A stretch of 64,000 nucleotides of DNA, from the NCBI RefSeq assembly GCF_000971275.1, contig NZ_LAPV01000134.1, positions 1 through 64,000 on the forward strand. The letters are read 5' to 3'. This DNA is from Devosia psychrophila (GTDB lineage Bacteria; Pseudomonadota; Alphaproteobacteria; Rhizobiales; Devosiaceae). The notes under the pieces are model-generated. The model was not told where the DNA came from, did not search any database, and was given only the letters and a program-made list of their open reading frames with translations. Numbering within the stretch: position 1 is the first letter of the stretch; each line of letters starts with the position of its first letter. Position numbers and translations under genes: made by a program. Below are positions 17,798 to 50,563 of the stretch, piece by piece.

Positions 17798-18808
17798 ATG
17801 GACGACATCATTCCCCGCGAGCCCCCCGCCCGCCACGTCGCCAACGGCATGGTCGGCGTCGGGGCAGTTCTGGTGTTTGACGGCAAAGGCGGCGTAGTTC
17901 GCCACGAACCGACCGCCGAAGAACCCAAAGTGCCCGCTCGCGGCTTCAAGCTGGTCTGCGGCAATTCCAAAGCGCCCGAATTCAAGGTCTGGCTCAAGCA
18001 GGAGTTGGGAGAGTTCAACGCCGACCTGCTCACGGTGCCGAGCACTCGTTCGCGCTGCACGGTCATTGAAGACCGCGCCATGGTTATGATGCGAGTTGCG
18101 CGGCCGGGGGCCGAACCGCATGACATAGGCCGTCAATTGCTCACGCTGTGGATCGAGAAGGGGCGCGTCATCATCGCGTCGGAGCTAAATATCCTCGATT
18201 TTCTTGGACTGACCAAGTGGGAGAGCTCTCACCACGCACCAGTGTCGCCGGCCGACCTCGTCGCCCGCCTCGGCCTGCGGGCCGCAGATCGGCTTGAACC
18301 GCTCGTTGAAATGCTTGGGGATCGTCTCGATAGCATCGAAGAAGCGTTGATCGTCCAGAACAATACCAAGATGAACAGCCGCCTCGCCGAGTTGCGCCGC
18401 ACCATGATCAGCTTCCGTCGTATCGTCTGGCCGCAGCGCGACGTACTCAACACGCTTGAGATCGAAGACCTTTCTCACTTCACCGCCCGTGACCGCCTCC
18501 GCCTGCGCGAAGCCTCGGCTCGCTCAGCCCGTATCGGCGATGAGCTACAGGCGCTTTCCGAGCGCGCCGTGCTGGTGCACGAACAGATCATCGACGCGCG
18601 CGCCGAACAGATGAACCGCACCATGCTGATCCTCGCCGCCGTCACGGTGGTCTTTATGCCCCTAACGCTACTGACTGGCGCCCTCGGCATGAACGTCGCC
18701 GGCATTCCCTTCTCCGACAATCCGCACGCCTTCTGGACAGTCTGTCTGGCTCTGTTTTTGCTGTCGCTGGGGATAGTCTGGTGGATGCGCGGCCAGCGGT
18801 GGCTTTGA
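17798..18808 (+). CDS. CorA-like zinc transporter (ZntB type)
   Basis: A 336-residue member of the CorA superfamily, which forms pentameric divalent-cation channels. A cytoplasmic alpha/beta domain and long stalk helices (about residues 1-270) are followed by two transmembrane helices (about 277-297 and 310-330). The signature GMN is present in GALGMNVAGIP between them. The replacement of the usual loop acidic residues and overall length fit ZntB rather than Mg-specific CorA. The ATG at 17798 is preferred to an upstream ATG at 17759 that lies within the REP-like repeat. Confidence 0.8.
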   Translation: MDDIIPREPPARHVANGMVGVGAVLVFDGKGGVVRHEPTAEEPKVPARGFKLVCGNSKAPEFKVWLKQELGEFNADLLTVPSTRSRCTVIEDRAMVMMRVARPGAEPHDIGRQLLTLWIEKGRVIIASELNILDFLGLTKWESSHHAPVSPADLVARLGLRAADRLEPLVEMLGDRLDSIEEALIVQNNTKMNSRLAELRRTMISFRRIVWPQRDVLNTLEIEDLSHFTARDRLRLREASARSARIGDELQALSERAVLVHEQIIDARAEQMNRTMLILAAVTVVFMPLTLLTGALGMNVAGIPFSDNPHAFWTVCLALFLLSLGIVWWMRGQRWL

Positions 18809-18821
18809 ACCGGCCATAGGC

Positions 18822-18883
18822 AAAATCGCTCCAGTGGAGCGATTTTAGGTGAGAAGGCCATTGGGCCTATGGCCTAATGGCGG
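18822..18883 (+). repeat. Two-hairpin repeat, copy 1 (doubles as terminator)
   Basis: A perfect 11-bp stem (AAAATCGCTCC / GGAGCGATTTT) with loop AGT is followed by AGGTGAGAAGGCC and a second palindrome (GGCC-TAT-GGCC), ending AATGGCGGG. The same plan occurs at 22297 and, reversed, at 47473. As it follows the zntB-like stop by 13 bases and the stem ends in T-rich sequence, it can also end transcription. Confidence 0.85.
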
Positions 18884-18899
18884 GCTCTTCAGCACCCAC

Positions 18900-19026
18900 G
18901 GTGTCACCCCGGCCTTAAGCCGGGGCCCATCCCGAGGTAGCCCGCGGCCGCAAGGTCGACCGCATGACCACCCGGGGCGATATGCACATCTCAGGATAGA
19001 TCTCGGCTCAAGGCCGGGATGACACC
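18900..19026. repeat. Intergenic inverted-repeat element (GGTGTCACCCCGGC family), copy 1
   Basis: A 127-base element bounded by GGTGTCA and TGACACC. Each arm holds an inner palindrome (CCCGGC...GCCGGGG), and GGCCCATCC/GGATAGATC segments are offset between arms. A relative of the same design is at 34855-34956. No coding potential. Confidence 0.8.
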
Positions 19027-19061
19027 GAGTGTGGGACTGCGTCGCGCTTGGTCCGCCCCTC

Positions 19062-20909
19062 CTAAATCCGCCCCGAAACCCGATGCAGCCCGGCGTACAA
19101 CCCATCCGCCGCCATCAATGCATCATGCGTGCCTTCCTCGCCGACGCCCTCGGGCGTCATCACCACAATCCGGTCAGCGTGCCGCACCGTCGACAGCCGA
19201 TGCGCGATGGCAATCATCGTCCGTCCCTTTGCCAGGATCAGCAGCGCCTGTTGCACCTCCCGCTCGCTTTCATTGTCCAGCGCACTGGTCGCCTCATCGA
19301 AAATCAGCACTGCCGGGTTTTTCAAAAACGCCCGGGCAATGGTCAGCCGCTGCTTCTGCCCACCAGATAGCTTCACCCCACGCTGGCCGATGTTCGACTG
19401 ATAACCATCAGGCAGGCCTGTGATAAACTCATGTGCGTTGGCCGCCCGCGCCGCCGCCACAATTTCGTCCTCGCCAGCTTCCGGCCGTCCATAACGCAGG
19501 TTGTCTTCTACCGTGCCGCTGAACAGATACACATCCTGTTGCACCACGCCGACGCTGCGCCGAAGCGAGGCCAGCGTCACATCCCGGACGTCCTTGCCAT
19601 CGATAGTGATGGCGCCGCTGGTAACATCATAGAACCGCGGGATCAGCGCACAAAGCGTACTCTTGCCTACCCCCGATGAGCCAACCAGCGCTACAAACTC
19701 GCCCGGCGCGATGTCCAGCGACAGCCGGCTGAACACCTGCGCAGACCCTTCGCCATAGCCAAAGCTGACATCGCGAAATGCAATTGCGCCCTTCACATGC
19801 CCGATATCCACCGCACCCCACCGGTCGGCGATGTCCGGCTGTTTTTCCAGCAGTTCCATGGCCCGCACGAAGCCGGTAGCGCCCTCCTGCCAAAGCCGGA
19901 TGAAGTTATCCAGCCGCCGCACCGGATCGACCAGCACGCCCACGCAAAGCAGGAAGGTCAGCATTTCCGCCACCGTGAGCTCGCCGCCGAGAATGCGGAT
20001 TGCTCCACCCACGATCACCATGATCGTCACCAGTTGCGCAAAGCCGTCCATGCCGACCCAAAGCAGCGCTTCGCTGCGGTAGCCAGCGGCCCGGCTGCGG
20101 AAGAAACTCTGGTTCTCTGCCTCGAAGCGGCGCAATTCCTCCGCCTCATTGGCAAATGACTGCACCACCCGAATGCCGCCCAACGCATCCTCGACCCGCT
20201 CGTTGACCGCCGCGATATGCTCCTTGCTGGTCTTGAGCGCCACACTCATCCGACCGTTGAAATGGCGCGCATACAGCACGGCAAACGGTACCAGCACCGC
20301 GATCAGCCCGGCCAACATCGTATCAATCACGGTCAACACCACCATGGCGCCGCCAAATTTCAGCACGCTGATGGCGATGTCTTCCGGTCCGTGATGGAAC
20401 AACTCGCCCAGCCAAAGCGAGTCATTGCTGATCCGACTCATCAGCTGCCCGACGCGCTGCCGGTCATAAAAGCCGAACGATAGCTTCTGGCAGTGCTCGA
20501 ACAGTTCCCTGCGCACATCGGCCTCGATGCGCGCGCCCATCACATGGCCCTGGTAATCAACGAAATATGTCGCCAGCGATTCCACGAGGAACACGCCAAG
20601 CATCAACCCGCCCATGCTCAGGATTTGGAGCAGGGCATCGTCGGCCTGCGCCAGTTCGGGCAGCCGCGTCGTGATGTAGCTGGCGCAGAGGGGCAGGGCG
20701 ATGGCGCTGGCTGCCACCAGTACGGCACAGCAAAGATCGGCCACCAGCAGCGGCACATAGGGCCAGTAGTAGCCAATGAACTTGCGCGCTCGCGCCGCAG
20801 ATTGGGCGGGGTCGTTCCGGCCTTTAGTCAGTCTTGAGAGAAGTTTGTAGAAGAAATGGCTACGGCCTGCGTCGCTGCGCTGCTCCGGCCAGGAATTTTT
20901 CGAATGCAT
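19062..20909 (-). CDS. MsbA-like ABC exporter (fused membrane and ATPase domains)
   Basis: A 615-residue half-transporter that would work as a dimer in the inner membrane. Six transmembrane helices span about residues 45-345. The ATPase domain has Walker A GSSGVGKST (about 412), signature LSGGQKQR (about 517), Walker B AVLIFDEATSALD (about 537) and the switch His in AHRLSTVRHAD. It resembles lipid or multidrug exporters; the substrate cannot be told. The ATG at 20909 has only a distant AGGA upstream, and a 35-codon frame with a better ribosome site (20860-20967) overlaps it. Confidence 0.85.
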   Translation of the reverse strand: MHSKNSWPEQRSDAGRSHFFYKLLSRLTKGRNDPAQSAARARKFIGYYWPYVPLLVADLCCAVLVAASAIALPLCASYITTRLPELAQADDALLQILSMGGLMLGVFLVESLATYFVDYQGHVMGARIEADVRRELFEHCQKLSFGFYDRQRVGQLMSRISNDSLWLGELFHHGPEDIAISVLKFGGAMVVLTVIDTMLAGLIAVLVPFAVLYARHFNGRMSVALKTSKEHIAAVNERVEDALGGIRVVQSFANEAEELRRFEAENQSFFRSRAAGYRSEALLWVGMDGFAQLVTIMVIVGGAIRILGGELTVAEMLTFLLCVGVLVDPVRRLDNFIRLWQEGATGFVRAMELLEKQPDIADRWGAVDIGHVKGAIAFRDVSFGYGEGSAQVFSRLSLDIAPGEFVALVGSSGVGKSTLCALIPRFYDVTSGAITIDGKDVRDVTLASLRRSVGVVQQDVYLFSGTVEDNLRYGRPEAGEDEIVAAARAANAHEFITGLPDGYQSNIGQRGVKLSGGQKQRLTIARAFLKNPAVLIFDEATSALDNESEREVQQALLILAKGRTMIAIAHRLSTVRHADRIVVMTPEGVGEEGTHDALMAADGLYAGLHRVSGRI

Positions 20910-20967
20910 GATTGGTAGTGTCCTGGTGAGGATTTGTTTTCATCGTCCTGGACAGGGCTTTCATCAT
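20860..20967 (-). CDS. Possible 35-codon leader ORF overlapping the ABC exporter start
   Basis: The frame starts with MMKALSRTMK, is preceded by GAGGAG at good spacing, and ends 50 bases inside the exporter gene in another frame. It is basic and short, and has no recognised relative. If translated, its ribosomes would unwind or reinitiate at the exporter start. Evidence is the ribosome site and overlap only. Confidence 0.3.
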   Translation of the reverse strand: MMKALSRTMKTNPHQDTTNHAFEKFLAGAAQRRRP

Positions 20968-21370
20968 GCGCTCCTCGGTTTGAAATCTGCGAACATTATG
21001 CTTCCGGCGATCCCGCGACACAACCACATGGACGCGACAACTGCCTCTCTGTGCTGATTCCGCAACAGCGTCCGTGAATCCATTTTGCCCCGGTGCTCGG
21101 CAACACTTTGGCGATGTTTGTCGCCACAATCTCACCCTAAACGAGACGGCATAGGCATCTGGGGGCGGATGACCTGTGAGCAGCGTGGATATCTCTGCGC
21201 GCTTGCATGTTTTTCTTCCCCAAAAGCCCAGGCCGATGCTGCAGCCAATCTGGTTGCGCGCTCTCGGCACGGTGAAGCGACGACGTGACAATACCTCCGA
21301 AGCGCCATGCGCTTGGCGGAATCCGGTCACAAACGGAGTTTACCGAAAGATTAACATCTCGCTTCCCGGG

Positions 21371-21456
21371 CCAGCTTGGTTCGGCCGAAGCTGGAACAGA
21401 CGATCGTGAGGCCTGAACGGGCCTCGGAAACAATGTTCGCCCGCAAGAATGCGGGC
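21371..21456 (+). promoter_or_regulatory. Three consecutive hairpins in the leader of the Sel1-protein gene
   Basis: CCAGCTT/AAGCTGG (21371-21394), GAGGCC/GGCCTC (21408-21425) and GCCCGCA/TGCGGGC (21439-21456) stand in series and end a few bases before AAGGAG and the ATG at 21470. The last could influence access to the ribosome site. No known riboswitch pattern is recognised. The remaining 20,968-21,370 holds no gene I can support. Confidence 0.4.
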
Positions 21457-21469
21457 AAGAAGGAGCAAG

Positions 21470-22279
21470 ATGCGGACCATTAGGGACCACTCCCTGATTT
21501 CCGTGACAACGGCAGTCGTCCTCGCGCTCGCTGCGTCGATCCTGCCTGTGCACGCCCAGACGGCAGCCGACGCTGCCCTCAACATGGCCAACATGCTCGA
21601 TGGGGCAGGAGGCGGTGTTTCTGGAGACGACCTGCTTGCGGCCCTCGAAGACGCCGCCGAAGCCGGCCAGCCGATGGCCATGTGGCAACTCGGCACCATG
21701 TATGAAAACGGCGAAGGCGTAGACCGCGACCCGGCCAAGGCTTTCGGCTACTTCGCCCAGATCGCCAATCAGCACGCCGATGCAGTGCCCAAGGGCGTCG
21801 AGGCCGATATCGTGGCCCAGTCATTTGTCAAAGTCGGCGACTACTACCGCGAAGGTCTGCCTGATGCTGGCATTCCTGCCGACGCCGAGCGTTCGCACGC
21901 CCTGTTGCTGCATGCCGCCACCTATTTCGGTGACGCCGATGCGCAATACCGCGTCGGCCTGCTCTACATGAGTGACGATGGCCTCGGTGCCAATCCGCTG
22001 CAAAGCGCCCGCTGGTTCTCGCTGGCCGCCCGCAAGGGGCATTGCCCGGCGCAGGCTCAGCTCGGCGAACTGCTGTTCCACGGCGTCGAGGGGATCGAAG
22101 CCCAGCCCGTTGAAGGCCTGATGTGGCTCGAAATCGCCCACCAGCGCTGCGCCACCACCGCCGATGCCGGCTGGATCGACGACATGCTCAACAAGGCAGT
22201 GGCAGCGGCTGCCCCCGAGCAACAGTTAGAAGCGACCAAGCTGGCCGACACGATAGCCCCGCAGTTTGCTGGCTTTTGA
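21470..22279 (+). CDS. Secreted Sel1-repeat protein
   Basis: A 269-residue protein with a signal peptide (about residues 1-29, ending LPVHAQ) and several Sel1-like (TPR-type) repeats from about residue 60 to 225, for example AMWQLGTMYENGEGV, AQYRVGLLYMSDDGLG and AQAQLGELLFHGVEG. Sel1 repeats form helical solenoids for protein-protein contacts, often in envelope signalling or peptidoglycan remodelling. AAGGAG precedes the ATG. The partner is unknown. It stands alone, with three hairpins in its leader and a hairpin terminator-like repeat after it. Confidence 0.8.
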   Translation: MRTIRDHSLISVTTAVVLALAASILPVHAQTAADAALNMANMLDGAGGGVSGDDLLAALEDAAEAGQPMAMWQLGTMYENGEGVDRDPAKAFGYFAQIANQHADAVPKGVEADIVAQSFVKVGDYYREGLPDAGIPADAERSHALLLHAATYFGDADAQYRVGLLYMSDDGLGANPLQSARWFSLAARKGHCPAQAQLGELLFHGVEGIEAQPVEGLMWLEIAHQRCATTADAGWIDDMLNKAVAAAAPEQQLEATKLADTIAPQFAGF

Positions 22280-22296
22280 CGGGCCGCTCCGCGGCT

Positions 22297-22358
22297 AAAA
22301 CGCGCCAGTGGCGCGTTTTTAGGTCAGAAGGCCTTGAGGGCTATGCCCGAATGGCGGG
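22297..22358 (+). repeat. Two-hairpin repeat, copy 2
   Basis: The first stem is AAAACGCGCC/GGCGCGTTTT with loop AGT, followed by AGGTCAGAAGGCC, a second hairpin GGGC-TAT-GCCC (22338-22348) and AATGGCGGG. Compared with copy 1 at 18822 the first stem has changed on both sides yet pairs perfectly. It follows the Sel1-gene stop by 17 bases. Confidence 0.85.
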
Positions 22359-22386
22359 TGAACTTTTTTGCTTGAATGACAGTTGG

Positions 22387-22556
22387 TACCCCCACCTAAC
22401 TTTCCCCTGATGAGGGGGAGGAATACCTTTGGTGATCGTCACAAATCCCGCCAAAAACTGGATCGGATTCCTCCCCCTTTTCAGGGCTTGGGCGCGATCC
22501 AGAGGGGCAAATCGCTCCGGTGGAGCGATTTGAGCAACCAAGGCTAGGTGGGGGTA
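22387..22556. repeat. MITE-like element 1 with perfect 12-bp terminal inverted repeats
   Basis: The 170-base element starts TACCCCCACCTA and ends TAGGTGGGGGTA. Inside are the paired segments CCTGATGAGGGGGAGGAAT and ATTCCTCCCCCTTTTCAGGG, and a further 10-bp hairpin at 22509-22531 (AAATCGCTCC/GGAGCGATTT, loop GGT) of the same kind as the two-hairpin repeats. No ORF. A related element is at 47465-47656. Confidence 0.8.
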
Positions 22557-22588
22557 TTCTTCCTCACTTACTCGAGCGAACCAGCCCC

Positions 22589-23368
22589 TCAAAAACTAAA
22601 CCGCCCCTCGACCGGCACATGATCGCTCGGCTTGTCCCAGCCGCGCACATCCTTGTGCACGATCACGTCTTCCAGCCGGTCCGCCGCCTGTGGCGACAGC
22701 ATCAGGTGATCGATACGAATGCCGGCGTTGCGTCGCCACGCGCCAGCCTGGAAATCCCAAAACGTATAGGCGGATTCCGATGTCGTCGCCCGCAGCGCAT
22801 CGGTCAGCCCGAGGTTAACCAGCGTCCGCCAGCGCTCGAGGCTCTCCGGGCGATACAACGCATCGCCCCACCAGGCAGCCGGGTCATGCGCATCGATCGG
22901 CGCCGGGATCAGGTTGAAATCCCCCAGCAGCACGAACGGCTCTTCCAGCGCCAGTCGGCCCTCGACATAGGTCTCCAGTCGCTTCATCCAGCTCAGCTTG
23001 TAGGGGAATTTTTCCGTATCCACCGGGTTACCGTTCGGCAGGTAAATCCCGCACACCCGGATGGCGCCGGTCTCGACCGAGAACACTCCCTCGATCAAGC
23101 GTGCCTGCTCGTCGGCATCGTCGCCGGGCAGCCCGCGCGACACCTCGTCGAACGGCAGCAGCGACAGGATGGCCACGCCGTTCCAGCTCTTCTGCCCATG
23201 CGTCTCGATATTGTAACCAAGCGCCTCGATCTCGGCGCGAGGAAAGCCCTCGTCGATGGTCTTGATCTCCTGCAGCACCACGATGTCCGGCTTTTCCTGC
23301 GCCAGCCAGGTGACCAGCAACTCGATGCGGGCCTTGATGCCGTTGATGTTCCAGGTGGCGATACGCAT
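22589..23368 (-). CDS. xthA: Exodeoxyribonuclease III
   Basis: A 259-residue member of the exonuclease III/AP endonuclease family, which cuts at abasic sites and trims 3' ends in base excision repair. The motifs are in order: WNINGIKAR (residue 6), LQEIKT (about 36), NGVAILS, LGDFNLIPAPIDAHDP (about 145), YTFWDFQAGAWRRNAGIRID (about 210) and the catalytic His in KPSDHVPV near the end. The ATG at 23368 follows AAGGAG. Placement beside erpA and dgt is usual for the order. Confidence 0.95.
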   Translation of the reverse strand: MRIATWNINGIKARIELLVTWLAQEKPDIVVLQEIKTIDEGFPRAEIEALGYNIETHGQKSWNGVAILSLLPFDEVSRGLPGDDADEQARLIEGVFSVETGAIRVCGIYLPNGNPVDTEKFPYKLSWMKRLETYVEGRLALEEPFVLLGDFNLIPAPIDAHDPAAWWGDALYRPESLERWRTLVNLGLTDALRATTSESAYTFWDFQAGAWRRNAGIRIDHLMLSPQAADRLEDVIVHKDVRGWDKPSDHVPVEGRFSF

Positions 23369-23396
23369 GGCGAGAGTCTCCTTAAGTGCCGACAGC

Positions 23397-24509
23397 TCAA
23401 CCGCGCAGGAAATCCGCATAGATGGCGTTCCGCACGTTACGTGGAAACATTCCGAGGCACCCTTCCTGCGCGGTGTTGCTCATCGAGACCATTACCAGTT
23501 CGTTGGCCGGGTCCACCAGCCACGAATGTCCGTATACCCCGCCCCAGTTGACAGTTCCCGGGGCCTCTGGCGTGTTGGCCGCAACCGGATCATCCACCAC
23601 GGCGCCAAGATAGCCAAACCGCAGCCCGGCGTCCTCGCGCGGCAATTTGCCGACCTGATTGCGCATCGCCGCGGCGACCGTACTGGCGGAGACAATGCCG
23701 CCGCCGCCGGTCCGCAGTGTTTCGAGTAATTTCAGGATATCGACGCCTGTGCCCACCATGCCGGCGCCGCCAGACTGGAAGGCTTTGGGATTCCACACTC
23801 GCACCGGCGAGAATATTGTCGTGTCGCCATTGTCATTGATAATTGTCTGATGATCCGCCATGCGGACCGGCTCCGGCGTACCATCGGCATAGGCTGGCGC
23901 CAGCCGGGAGGGATCGGAAACCTCGAAACCGGTATCGCTCATACCTAGCGGCCCGGTCACCTGGGTGAAGGCTGCCTCACCGAGCGTACCACCATGTACT
24001 GCTGCCAGAACCGCGCCCAGGACGTCGATAGCCACCGAATAGTTCCACCCGGCGCCTGGAGCGAACAACAGAGGTTGCTGCGCGATTCGCGTCAGATTGC
24101 TCTCATGATCGAGATTGGTATCCTGCATACCGGTGGTGATGATCGTGTCACCCGGATAGCCATAACTCAGCCCGGCAGTGTGGTTCAGCAAGTGCTTCAG
24201 GGCGATGTTGGCAATACTGCCATCGCCAAGCCTGGGTTGAAAATACGGAAGGTATCGGTCAACCCGGTCGTCGAGGTCGAGCAACCCCTTGTCCGCCATG
24301 GCCAGCGCAGTCGTCGCGACGATTGGCTTGGTGACCGAAGCAAGCCGATAAATCGCGTTTTCCGGCATGGCTATGCCGGCTTCGCGGTCAAAATAACCAG
24401 CGGCGCGTCGATAGACGATCTCGCCGCCTTTCGACGCGATGATCTCGGCCCCGACAATGGATTTATTGCTTATGGCGTCGTCTATGACGCGATCGACCGA
24501 CTGCTGCAT
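23397..24509 (-). CDS. Serine hydrolase of the beta-lactamase/esterase family
   Basis: A 370-residue class C beta-lactamase-fold protein. The nucleophile motif is S-V-T-K in RLASVTKPIVAT (about residue 59). The second motif is Tyr-Ser in GWNYSVAIDVLGAVL, and the third region contains YGHSWLVDP in place of the lactamase KTG. Without a signal peptide it is probably a cytoplasmic esterase or D-amino-acid-related hydrolase rather than a resistance enzyme. The ATG at 24509 is chosen because the helix MQQSVDRVIDDAI fits the family start. It ends 28 bases before the xthA start, on the same strand. Confidence 0.8.
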   Translation of the reverse strand: MQQSVDRVIDDAISNKSIVGAEIIASKGGEIVYRRAAGYFDREAGIAMPENAIYRLASVTKPIVATTALAMADKGLLDLDDRVDRYLPYFQPRLGDGSIANIALKHLLNHTAGLSYGYPGDTIITTGMQDTNLDHESNLTRIAQQPLLFAPGAGWNYSVAIDVLGAVLAAVHGGTLGEAAFTQVTGPLGMSDTGFEVSDPSRLAPAYADGTPEPVRMADHQTIINDNGDTTIFSPVRVWNPKAFQSGGAGMVGTGVDILKLLETLRTGGGGIVSASTVAAAMRNQVGKLPREDAGLRFGYLGAVVDDPVAANTPEAPGTVNWGGVYGHSWLVDPANELVMVSMSNTAQEGCLGMFPRNVRNAIYADFLRG

Positions 24510-47242: not shown

Positions 47243-47464
47243 AGTCGGGATTTGTCGTGGGTTGGGATCGTGCTGGCCATTATCGCAGACCAGCGCGCCC
47301 GATTTCCCCGCACGCAACAGGAGCGACCTCCCATTCCCGGCAGTCTCCACGCTCGTCACTCGTCATGACTAGCTCTGTTGTGAAGATGGGATGGAGTATG
47401 CGGGACTTTCGGTGGACGGGGATAAGTTTTTTGAGACAAGCGGCCGGAAGAGTCTTTGATGGGG

Positions 47465-47656
47465 TACCCCCACCGCCATTCGGGCGTAGCCCTCATGGCC
47501 TTCTCATCTAAAACCACGCCACCGGCGTGGTTTTGCCTTCGGCCGGATCGAAGTCCCGCTGATGAGGGGGAAGAATCCCTCCGGTGAATTGGGCGAGATC
47601 GAGGGCACACTCGATGCGGCTCCTCCCCCTTTTCAGGGGGAGGTTGGGTGGGGGTA
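47465..47656. repeat. MITE-like element 2 with 10-bp terminal inverted repeats
   Basis: The 192-base element starts TACCCCCACC and ends GGTGGGGGTA, like the element at 22387. It contains CTGATGAGGGGGAAGAAT and CTCCCCCTTTTCAGGGGGAG and encloses a reversed two-hairpin repeat at its left end. Both elements are followed by TTCTT. No ORF. Confidence 0.8.
47473..47534 (-). repeat. Two-hairpin repeat, copy 3 (reverse orientation)
   Basis: Read on the minus strand: stem AAAACCACGCC/GGCGTGGTTTT with loop GGT, then AGATGAGAAGGCC, hairpin GGGC-TAC-GCCC and AATGGCGG. The plan and spacing equal copies 1 and 2 while the first stem again differs with full pairing. It is nested in the MITE-like element. Confidence 0.85.
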
Positions 47657-47668
47657 TTCTTGCTACCT

Positions 47669-50563
47669 TTACTCAGCCGCCCGCGTCGCGAACATCGGGC
47701 GCCGCGCCATGACATCCTTGAGGAACTTGCCGGTGTAGGAGCGGTCGACCTGGGCGACGTCTTCGGGGGTGCCAATGGCCACCACTTCGCCGCCGCCGTC
47801 GCCACCTTCGGGACCCATGTCGATGACCCAGTCGGCGGTTTTGATGACTTCGAGATTGTGCTCGATGACGATGACGGTGTTGCCGCCATCGACCAGCTCA
47901 TGCAGCACTTCGAGGAGCTTGGCCACGTCGTGGAAATGCAGGCCCGTGGTCGGCTCATCCAGCATGTAGAGCGTGCGGCCGGTGGCGCGCTTGGACAGCT
48001 CCTTGGACAGCTTGACGCGCTGCGCCTCGCCGCCCGAAAGCGTATTGGCCGGCTGGCCGACCTTCACATAGCCGAGGCCGACGCGCTGCAGCGTGGCGAA
48101 CTTGTCGCGGATCACCGGCACCGCCGAGAAGAAATCGACGCCTTCGTCGATGGTCATGTCGAGGATGTCCGAAATTGACTTGCCCTTGAACTGAACTTCC
48201 AGCGTCTCGCGATTGTAGCGCTTGCCCTTGCAGACGTCGCAGGTGACGTAAACGTCGGGAAGGAAGTGCATTTCGATCTTGAGAACGCCATCGCCTTCGC
48301 ATTTCTGGCAGCGGCCGCCCTTGACGTTGAACGAGAAACGGCCGGGGCCGTAGCCGCGGGTCTTGGACTCCGGCAGGCCGGCAAACCACTCGCGCAGCGG
48401 CGTGAAGGCGCCGGTATAGGTTGCCGGATTGGACCGCGGCGTACGGCCGATAGGCGACTGGTCGATGTCGATGACCTTGTCGAGAAATTCGAGGCCGGTC
48501 AGGCTGTCATGCGGGGCAGGGACCACGCGCGCGCCGTTCAGCCGGCGGGCGATGGCCTGGTACATGGTGTCGATCATCAGCGTAGACTTGCCGCCGCCGG
48601 AGACGCCGGTGATGGCGACGAACAGGCCCAGCGGGATATCGACTGAGACATTCTTGAGATTGTTGCCGGTGGCGCCCTTGACGCTAAGGGTCTTGCCCTT
48701 GGTGGCCTCGCGACGCTCCGCCGGCATGGCAATGCCCATCCGCCCGGACAGATACTGCCCGGTCAGCGAGTCGGGGTGATTGAGGATGTCCTGCGGCGTG
48801 CCTTCGGCGACGATATGACCGCCATGTACACCGGCACCGGGGCCGATATCGACCACGTAATCGGCACTCATGATGGCGTCTTCGTCATGCTCGACGACGA
48901 TCACCGTATTGCCGATATCGCGTAGGCGCCGCAGCGTTTCGAGCAGCTTGGCATTGTCGCGCTGATGCAGGCCAATGCTCGGCTCGTCCAGCACATAGAG
49001 CACGCCGGTCAGGCCGGAGCCGATCTGGCTGGCGAGCCGGATACGCTGGCTCTCGCCACCCGACAGAGTGCCGGAATTGCGCGACATCGACAGATAGTCT
49101 AGGCCAACGTCGATCAGGAAATTCAGCCGCTCGCGGATTTCCTTGAGGATGCGCTCGCCAATGGTCATCTGCGTTGGCGTCAGCTTGGCCGGCAGCGAAT
49201 TGAACCAGGCGAGGGAGTCGCGGATCGACTTTTCGGTGACCTGGCCGACATGCAACCCGTCGATCTTGACCGCCAGCGATTCCGGCTTGAGACGATAGCC
49301 GCCGCAGGCCAGGCAAGGCTTGGCCGACATGTACTTTTCGATCTCTTCGCGCATGCCGGCGCTTTCGGTTTCCTTGTAGCGGCGCTCAAGGTTGCCGATG
49401 ACGCCTTCGAAGACCTTGGTGGTCTTGTACTGGCGCAGGCCATCGTCATAGACGAATTCGATCTTAGCCTTGTCGGTGCCATAGAGCACCGCGTGCTGCA
49501 CCTCGAACGGCAGCTCGTTCCAGGCAGTGGCGGTCGAGGCGCCATAGTGTTTTACCACCGCTTGCAGAGTCTGCAGGTAATAGGGCGCACTGGTCTTGGC
49601 CCAGGGCAGGATGGCGCCGTTCTTTAGGGACAGCGCCTGGTCCGGCACGATCTGGTCGGGGTCGATCTTTTGCTCGGTGCCGAGGCCATCGCAGACCGGG
49701 CAGGCGCCAAATGGGTTGTTGAACGAAAACAGCCGCGGCTCGATTTCGGCAATAGTGAATCCGCTGACCGGGCAGGCGAACTTTTCGGAGAAAGTGATCT
49801 GGCGCGCCGAACCGTCTTCGTTCTTCTCGTCAGCAAACTCGATCAGGGCGATGCCGTCGGCCAGCTTCAGCGCCGTCTCGAAGCTTTCAGCCAGGCGTCC
49901 GGAAATCTCGGGACCGACCACGACGCGGTCCACCACCACTTCGATGTCATGCTTGAACTTCTTGTCGAGGACCGGAGCCTCTTCGATCTCGTAATATTCG
50001 CCATCGATCTTGACGCGCTGGAAGCCCTTGCGCATCAGGTCTGCCAGTTCTTTCTTATACTCGCCCTTGCGGCCGCGCGCGATCGGCGCCAGCAGGAAAA
50101 CCCGCGCACCTTCCTTTAGCTCCAGCACCTTGTCGACCATCTGGCTGACGGTCTGGCTCTCGATCGGCAAGCCGGTGGCCGGCGAATAGGGCACGCCGAC
50201 GCGGGCGTAAAGCAGGCGCAGGTAATCGTAGATTTCGGTGACCGTGCCAACCGTAGAGCGCGGGTTACGCGACGTGGTCTTCTGTTCGATGGAAATGGCC
50301 GGCGACAGGCCTTCGATGTGATCCACATCGGGCTTCTGCATCATCTCAAGGAACTGCCGCGCATAAGCCGACAGCGATTCGACATAACGGCGCTGGCCCT
50401 CTGCATAGATGGTGTCGAAGGCGAGCGAAGACTTGCCGGAACCGGACAAGCCGGTCATCACGATCAGGCTGTCGCGCGGCAGCGTGACGTCGATGCCCTT
50501 GAGATTGTGCTCGCGGGCGCCGCGCACAATCAGTTCACGGTTCTGGCTGGTCTTTGGCGTCAT
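47669..50563 (-). CDS. uvrA: Excinuclease ABC subunit A
   Basis: A 964-residue damage-recognition ATPase of nucleotide excision repair. The two ABC halves are present: Walker [20 protein letters not shown] (about 38-56) and [16 protein letters not shown] (about 650), with signatures [14 protein letters not shown] and [15 protein letters not shown]. Zinc-binding Cys clusters are seen in [10 protein letters not shown] and [16 protein letters not shown]. Normal length. A GAAC-N7-GAAC SOS box lies 192 bases upstream (50755-50769). Confidence 0.97.

Follow-up and report, generated by a model that had tools for sequence, protein, structure and literature searches.

The window, a stretch of 64,000 nucleotides from Devosia psychrophila, contains three full copies and one shortened copy of a structured repeat of roughly 82-86 nt (about 85 nt). 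A first-pass annotation had described three copies of a two-hairpin repeat at 18822, 22297 and 47473, together with a relative at 22509, and all of these are present at those positions, the copy at 47473 being on the minus strand. Copy 1 occupies 18802-18883 on the plus strand and is matched with 93.0 bits (E = 8.9e-20) by R1, a covariance model built from 22 aligned copies (alignment A1). In order from the 5' end, it has the 5' arm of an outer stem P1 (CTTTGAACC, 18803-18811), a small hairpin H0 (GCC-ATA-GGC, 18813-18821), the hairpin H1 (AAAATCGCTCC, 18822-18846), the 3' arm of P1 (GGTGAGAAG, 18848-18856) and the hairpin H2 (18857-18881). H1 and H2 correspond to the first stem and second hairpin described previously, and the 3' arm of P1 to the linker between them. 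The element had been taken to start at 18822; because P1 and H0 belong to it, the true start lies further upstream, at 18802. The 5' arm of P1 includes the TGA stop codon (18806-18808) of the upstream gene, called at 17798-18808.

Copy 2 has the same arrangement. It extends over 22273-22357 on the plus strand, with an R1 match at 22276-22357 (84.8 bits, E = 9.9e-18) and P1 from 22273. Its P1 5' arm (CTTTTGACG, 22273-22281) pairs with GGTCAGAAG at 22322-22330 and includes the TGA stop (22277-22279) of a gene called at 21470-22279, so that two of the three full copies have an upstream TGA inside P1. H0 is GCCGC-TCC-GCGGC (22283-22295), H1 is AAAACGCGCC (22297-22319, the next pair outward being T-T), and H2 is at 22331-22355. 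Copy 3, at 47473-47554 on the minus strand (R1 102.1 bits, E = 4.9e-22), has H1 AAAACCACGCC at 47534-47510 and P1 arms at 47553-47545 and 47508-47500; it lies 114 bp past the 3' end of a minus-strand gene at 47669-50563, and is nested in another repeat. Copy 4 (22486-22579, plus strand, R1 34.9 bits, E = 2.4e-5) is a P1-H0-H1 module without H2, and is also inside another repeat. It had been described as a lone hairpin, but it has, besides H1 at 22508-22532, a possible P1 in which 7 of 9 positions pair (22487-22495 with 22534-22542). A further dispersed repeat is present in the window at 22385-22580 and 47460-47650, with ends GGTACCCCCACC / GGTGGGGGTA and arms CCTCCCCCT..AGGGGGAGG; this repeat hosts several nested copies of the element in the D. 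psychrophila genome (L209, L211-L214).

When the copies are compared side by side, the two hairpins recognized at first are seen to be the core of a larger fold, in which P1 encloses H0 and H1 and is followed by H2. In the consensus, the 5' arm of P1 is CTTC-GA-GCC, preceding H0, and its partner is the linker that follows H1, GGT-GA-GAAG; H0 is a small hairpin GCC-NNA-GGC and variants of it. H1 is perfectly paired in each of the three full copies, as had been claimed. The second hairpin is also present, but is longer than had been described, being an imperfect hairpin with the consensus GCCAT-GA-GGGC-TAY-GCCC-GA-ATGGC. A tandem G-A step is found in both P1 and H2. One strand therefore forms a three-way junction (P1 closing H0 and H1), with H2 immediately after it. 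The whole structure is found in minimum-energy folds of single copies, both as RNA and as DNA, with the DNA centroid having H1 and H2 only. For copy 1, P1, H0, H1 and H2 are all present at minimum energy, as RNA (-43.1 kcal/mol, z -4.5) and as DNA (z -4.9), and here too the DNA centroid is H1 and H2 only.

The covariation claimed from the window copies proved to be real: in alignments A1 and A3 it lies above all 500 shuffles on all five measures. For 131 distinct aligned copies, in an alignment fitted to the R1 structure (which is without P1), the structure with P1 has 93.2% of its cells paired, compared to 79.2% after shuffling and 35-48% with slid partners, and changes on both sides are found in 25 of the 30 pairs. 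The weakest part of P1 is its inner half, with 76.1% of cells paired. P1 could be counted in fixed columns for 80 of 188 copies, namely those that have as H0 a 3-bp hairpin belonging to four stem types; of the 720 P1 cells, 479 form Watson-Crick pairs, whereas 1000 linker shuffles averaged 392 and never exceeded 412. All four of P1, H0, H1 and H2 covary.

The element is dispersed and non-coding, as had been proposed. At E<=10, 30 matches were found in the D. psychrophila genome with a 68-base copy as the query and 114 with R1; among the weaker R1 matches, many are to the opposite strand of H1, which is palindromic. Applied to the stretches retrieved from this genome, R1 matched 69 sites, one of them on both strands (70 matches in all), the best genome match having E = 8.9e-23; only 4 of the 69 have their midpoint inside a called gene. 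In a sample of 41 Devosia genomes (this one included), matches at E<=0.001 are present in 39, numbering between 1 and 91 in each, and are absent from two; these counts are lower bounds, since only part of the candidates was scored (112 of about 2,450 in D. psychrophila). With the covariance model built and both this genome and its relatives searched, the further copies keep a paired first stem. The H2 pattern matches 107 contig stretches of the genome collection, and among the 80 of these that were listed, all are from Devosia or from metagenome bins labelled Alphaproteobacteria or Hyphomicrobiales. In high copy number, extragenic position and imperfect palindromic form, the element is a REP-like palindrome in the broad sense.

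Scanning the window against Rfam at the gathering score found only a tRNA, with no match to the element; this is a sizeable structured family that has no Rfam entry at that score. A lax scan of copy 1 (E<=10) gave only the Brucella sRNA BASRCI153, a sub-threshold likeness over 18813-18881 of 13.1 bits (E 0.24, gathering score 137). Among the titles and opening parts of abstracts listed for open-licence PMC articles, none describes the element. It may be added that some copies form inverted, BIME-like pairs (L168, L126, L129, L080).

Gene ends were located using a simple codon-score gene caller of our own, trained on D. psychrophila loci, in place of an annotation. An upstream gene in the sense direction is present for 124 of 188 well-formed copies, and in 48 of these its stop codon ends 12-21 nt before H1, a range that is approximately the P1 5' arm plus one preceding base. 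Beyond this range the numbers fall to 3 (22-31 nt), 0 (32-41 nt) and 5 (42-51 nt). The corresponding distance on the other side, between the 3' end of the element and the stop of a convergent gene, is spread out. For the 51 copies with a stop within 7-22 nt, the stops are TGA in 29, TAG in 14 and TAA in 8, compared to 422, 316 and 205 in the background of the same loci, and therefore no stop codon is clearly preferred. The upstream genes include what we take, reading by eye, to be fabF, gmk, dnaN, petC, a ferredoxin gene and dnaJ.

The 3' ends of petC and dnaN were compared in 30 Devosia genomes each, using R2, a broader model. R2 was built partly from loci in G010, G049, G070, G072, G106 and G127, and also from Devosia copies, among them four at petC and the dnaN copy of D. 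psychrophila. An R2 match lies directly behind the stop in 9 of 30 genomes for petC (21 without a model match) and in 5 of 30 for dnaN (25 without), where matches at source loci, here as in the order sample and at lepA, are by construction. In the nine petC copies, the stop is TAG with linker CTA in two and TGA with linker TCA in seven. The remainder of P1 also varies and yet pairs, for example CTGACCCAC/GTGGGTCAG and CTGACTTCA/TGAAGTCAG, and 75 of the 81 P1 cells are Watson-Crick. Alignment A4 contains eleven petC copies, namely the nine matched and two degraded ones (G181, G005) that have no model match; two seeming remnants identified by eye (G162, G153) were left out. In these eleven, 90.2% of cells pair, compared to 79.5% after shuffling (0/500), although 33 of the 500 shuffles attained the same level on one of the five measures (further pair types). 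H2 type B is common to all petC copies, which speaks for their probable origin in a single insertion. Given that the stop-codon stem changes in step with the stop at one orthologous gene end, models of a guide and its target and of an RNA switch make different predictions.

Three further observations concern these gene ends. A second H2 type (GGCCCGAAGAGCTAYGCTCGCAGGGC) is used at dnaN (L240/L263) and petC (L293-L322); the D. psychrophila dnaN copy and another copy in that genome (L232, 8888-8970) run on into GCATATGCGAT; and in two species a second copy of the element lies behind the petC copy (L307 1301-1384 and L319 1288-1371, both minus strand).

Outside Devosia, R1 gave weaker matches in other families of the order, in 12 of 150 genomes (D. 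psychrophila included). At E<=1e-4, R2 matched at least 29 of 199 genomes of the order and, in the class sample, at least 7 of 289 (again including D. psychrophila), these being lower bounds from 22 and 15 scored candidates per genome, respectively. Common to the relatives are a CCAGTGG-like loop in H1, a tandem G-A in H2 and a short P1, and most have a GTGAG start; in 16 of 33 such matches, the stop of the upstream sense gene is either the TGA within this start or lies immediately in front of it. P1 is Watson-Crick in 112 of 145 cells, against a shuffled mean of 71 and maximum of 84 (2000 shuffles, 29 rows), a count that retains seven rows in which the motif rule misread the arm. The 45 rows for the relatives include weak matches and one on the opposite strand, and the reading of the weakest class match (G477, L385) was misplaced. 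Behind the stop of what is presumably lepA, recognized by eye from its C-terminus, an R2 match is found in 5 of 30 genomes, made up of 4 of 6 in family f27 and 1 of 2 in f41; an additional f41 genome also has the element there (L348). In a genome of another order, the first bases of the element (L388, 1501-1586, minus strand) coincide with the CA in the terminal CCA of a tRNA-Val gene, and P1 is extended to pair with that end (CATTCGAGCC/GGTGAGAATG). A second copy in the same genome (L382) is behind a tRNA-like end, at which ARAGORN called no gene.

If selection acts on the transcribed strand, then G-U pairs should exceed A-C mismatches. In H1 they do not overall: the 61 mismatches in 188 copies are 26 G-U and 35 A-C. 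The model alignments give 14 G-U and 19 A-C for the D. psychrophila copies, and 21 and 16 for the genus; outside Devosia the numbers are 2 and 12. P1 has 31 of each (80 copies). For H1 in stop-adjacent copies there are 12 G-U and 8 A-C, compared to 14 and 27 in other copies (difference p=0.10), and the nine petC copies have 6 G-U and 2 A-C over P1, H1 and H2. H0 has 22 G-U to 1 A-C (D. psychrophila) and 36 to 8 (genus), of which 17 and 29 G-U, respectively, come from one outer pair that is possibly misaligned. The outer pairs of H2 have 17 G-U and 9 A-C in the D. psychrophila copies; those of the genus set are uninformative, since the loci were chosen by the H2 pattern. As a rough control, petC terminators gave 10 G-U and 0 A-C, a comparison in which the choice of hairpin itself scored G-U above A-C, and in which the element's own H1 was picked at four of the 30 loci (L294, L307, L316, L318) and a different hairpin at one (L305). 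Because there is no G-U excess in H1, the fold appears to be kept mainly as a foldable DNA strand for most copies, with selection on RNA possible at some gene ends. The earlier suggestion of a novel RNA family agrees with the Rfam result, and the counts for H1 do not clearly bear it out.

Head-to-tail tandem arrays provide clues as to the borders of the element. These are present in D. elaeis (L146, four units of about 80 bp), D. ureilytica (L148, five units of 76 bp) and D. psychrophila (L237, two units). Read by eye, the first unit has a fuller P1, while later units are without its outer 5' half and keep the linker; to judge from these arrays, the unit has its left border within P1, so that in a lone copy the outer arm can be flanking sequence. 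A border in this position would be the expected trace of a guide-and-target rule, by analogy with IS200/IS605 elements. In those elements guides pair with the cleavage site, and the same has been proposed for REPs (PMC8266576). Against this, five D. psychrophila copies nested in the other repeat carry a whole P1, outer arm included, and here it seems that all of P1 travelled with the element. No target duplication was defined for the element.

We consider that the best reading, to which we give slightly less than an even chance, is that the element is a REP-like (BIME- or RIME-like) dispersed palindromic repeat of about 85 bp, without an Rfam match, that consists of foldable DNA lodged at gene ends. 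The covariation of the fold, the dispersal and the placement at the 3' ends of genes, with P1 often including the stop codon, are observed directly. Selection would act mainly through the need of the DNA strand to fold, and the copies would spread non-autonomously, in a manner that depends on the hairpin. A guide may be provided by the four linker bases immediately 5' of the foot of H2, which would pair with a left flank CTNN, often located at a stop codon. A stable structure directly behind a stop may in addition slow ribosome release or protect the end of the mRNA, by analogy with E. coli, where translation is reported to be lowered by REPs that lie within 15 nt of a stop (cited in PMC12306157). 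The occurrence of the same petC and dnaN stops without the element in most of the species compared also speaks for this reading. Counting against this reading are the absence of the Y1 transposase family PF01797 from nearly all Devosia genomes (see below) even though copy numbers reach 91, the whole P1 of the nested copies, and the G-U counts in stop-adjacent H1, in H0 and in the outer H2 pairs of D. psychrophila. More tentatively, this may be an alphaproteobacterial family belonging to gene ends, which builds its outer stem partly from the host gene (a stop codon or, in one genome, the CCA end of a tRNA-Val gene) within one covarying fold, with either the linker acting as a guide that directs insertion to gene ends or the fold acting as a switch that responds to ribosome termination.

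Somewhat doubtful, though deserving of attention, is the proposal that the element is a cis-acting RNA of the 3' UTR, in which the folded RNA, with the stop codon inside P1, would tune translation termination or shield the mRNA from 3' exonucleases. This would account for the bias to stop codons on the sense strand and for the pairing of P1 with TAG or TGA alike at petC; the petC mismatches and the G-U preference in H0 and, for the D. psychrophila copies, the outer H2 pairs point in the same direction, as do the model matches behind lepA in most f27 genomes. It also fits with locus L168, where two genes converge and each stop is abutted by its own copy. However, H1 and P1 show no overall excess of G-U, many copies have no sense gene in front, and most of the 30 genomes are without the element at petC and dnaN, as are 25 of 30 at lepA.

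Perfect but drifting stems could also arise without selection, if template switching during replication copied one arm onto the other. Half-changed intermediates are indeed few (H1 column 63/75 is UA in 84 copies, GC in 33, CG in 7 and all else in 5), and inverted-looking loops (ACT, ACC, GCT) occur in 6 of 188 copies. We regard this as improbable, because it leaves unexplained the spread, the stop-codon placement, the conserved linker and the tandem G-A steps of P1 and H2.

It had also been suggested that the element may be a terminator family, and a family of intrinsic transcription terminators is very unlikely. H1 does resemble an intrinsic terminator, being an A-stem-T hairpin behind genes, and a terminator-like site at 22344-22360 overlaps the 3' part of H2 in copy 2, followed by AACTTTTTT. 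However, H1 is usually followed by AGG with no T-run; a terminator scan of 18000-23500 did not list H1, and found 5 sites where 4.8 were expected from shuffles; and petC has a separate terminator, GGGCCC then T, downstream, whether the element is present or not. An intrinsic terminator was therefore rejected. A classical REP moved by a Y1 RAYT transposase is hardly credible: as in an E. coli REP, a tag lies on the 5' side of an imperfect palindrome that contains mismatches, and the guide pairing has CT at its distal end, but PF01797 (Y1/RAYT), the only mobilizing-enzyme model searched, has no match in D. psychrophila and is absent from 40 of 41 Devosia genomes (the single match being in a genome that is 78% complete), and GTAG is the tetranucleotide 5' of H2 in only 1 of 171 copies with the usual spacing. 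In these, GAAG is found in 88, CAAG in 15, GGAG in 9 and CTAG in 7, and by both features the element falls outside the REP/RAYT (REPtron) system.

We conclude that this is a real and sizeable family of structured repeats that behaves like REPs and is outside the REP/RAYT system by the features tested. It is distinguished by its outer stem, which includes the terminal bases of the adjacent gene and covaries with them. Its mode of movement and its effect on expression may be as outlined for the preferred reading of foldable DNA at gene ends. Palindromic intergenic repeats of around 100 bp occur in Hyphomicrobiales as RIME (Rhizobium-specific intergenic mosaic elements) and Bru-RS, which the element resembles by description only. 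Integron attC sites are also foldable and directly behind stop codons, with structure conserved above sequence, but the fold of the element differs from theirs.

REP-like repeats are common in bacteria, and the present family offers an approach to two questions, namely how some of them spread without a known transposase and why they gather at stop codons. The element resembles the REPs and BIMEs of E. coli and Pseudomonas (the GTAG and CGTC superfamilies; Di Nocera et al., 2013) in being intergenic and present in tens of copies, some of them paired in opposite orientation, in forming an imperfect palindrome whose mismatches are conserved, and in lying near stop codons. It differs in its length, its three-way junction and its usual tag, and in having an outer stem for which the flank or the stop codon provides the pairing partner. 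In the ends of IS200/IS605 elements, a short guide just 5' of the hairpin foot likewise pairs with the left flank (PMC8266576); the element differs in that no transposase was found, and in a pairing of up to 9 bp that encloses two hairpins. In PMC3733652, GTAG REPs are reported to supply TAG stops, and CGTC REPs to spread without a known transposase. CGTC REPs are described there as having a CGTC tag, a stem of 8-9 bp, a loop of 4-5 nt and a CCA tail, and identity with these was rejected on length and fold, although the letters CGTC do precede H0 in many copies (CCGTCCC), there with a 3-bp stem. As a separate observation, a palindrome that resembles a CGTC/TGTC-tagged REP (TGTCACCCCGGCCTTAAGCCGGGGCCCA) lies 3' of copy 1 in the window, at 18902-18930, and similar palindromes are found at dnaN 3' ends in other Devosia species.
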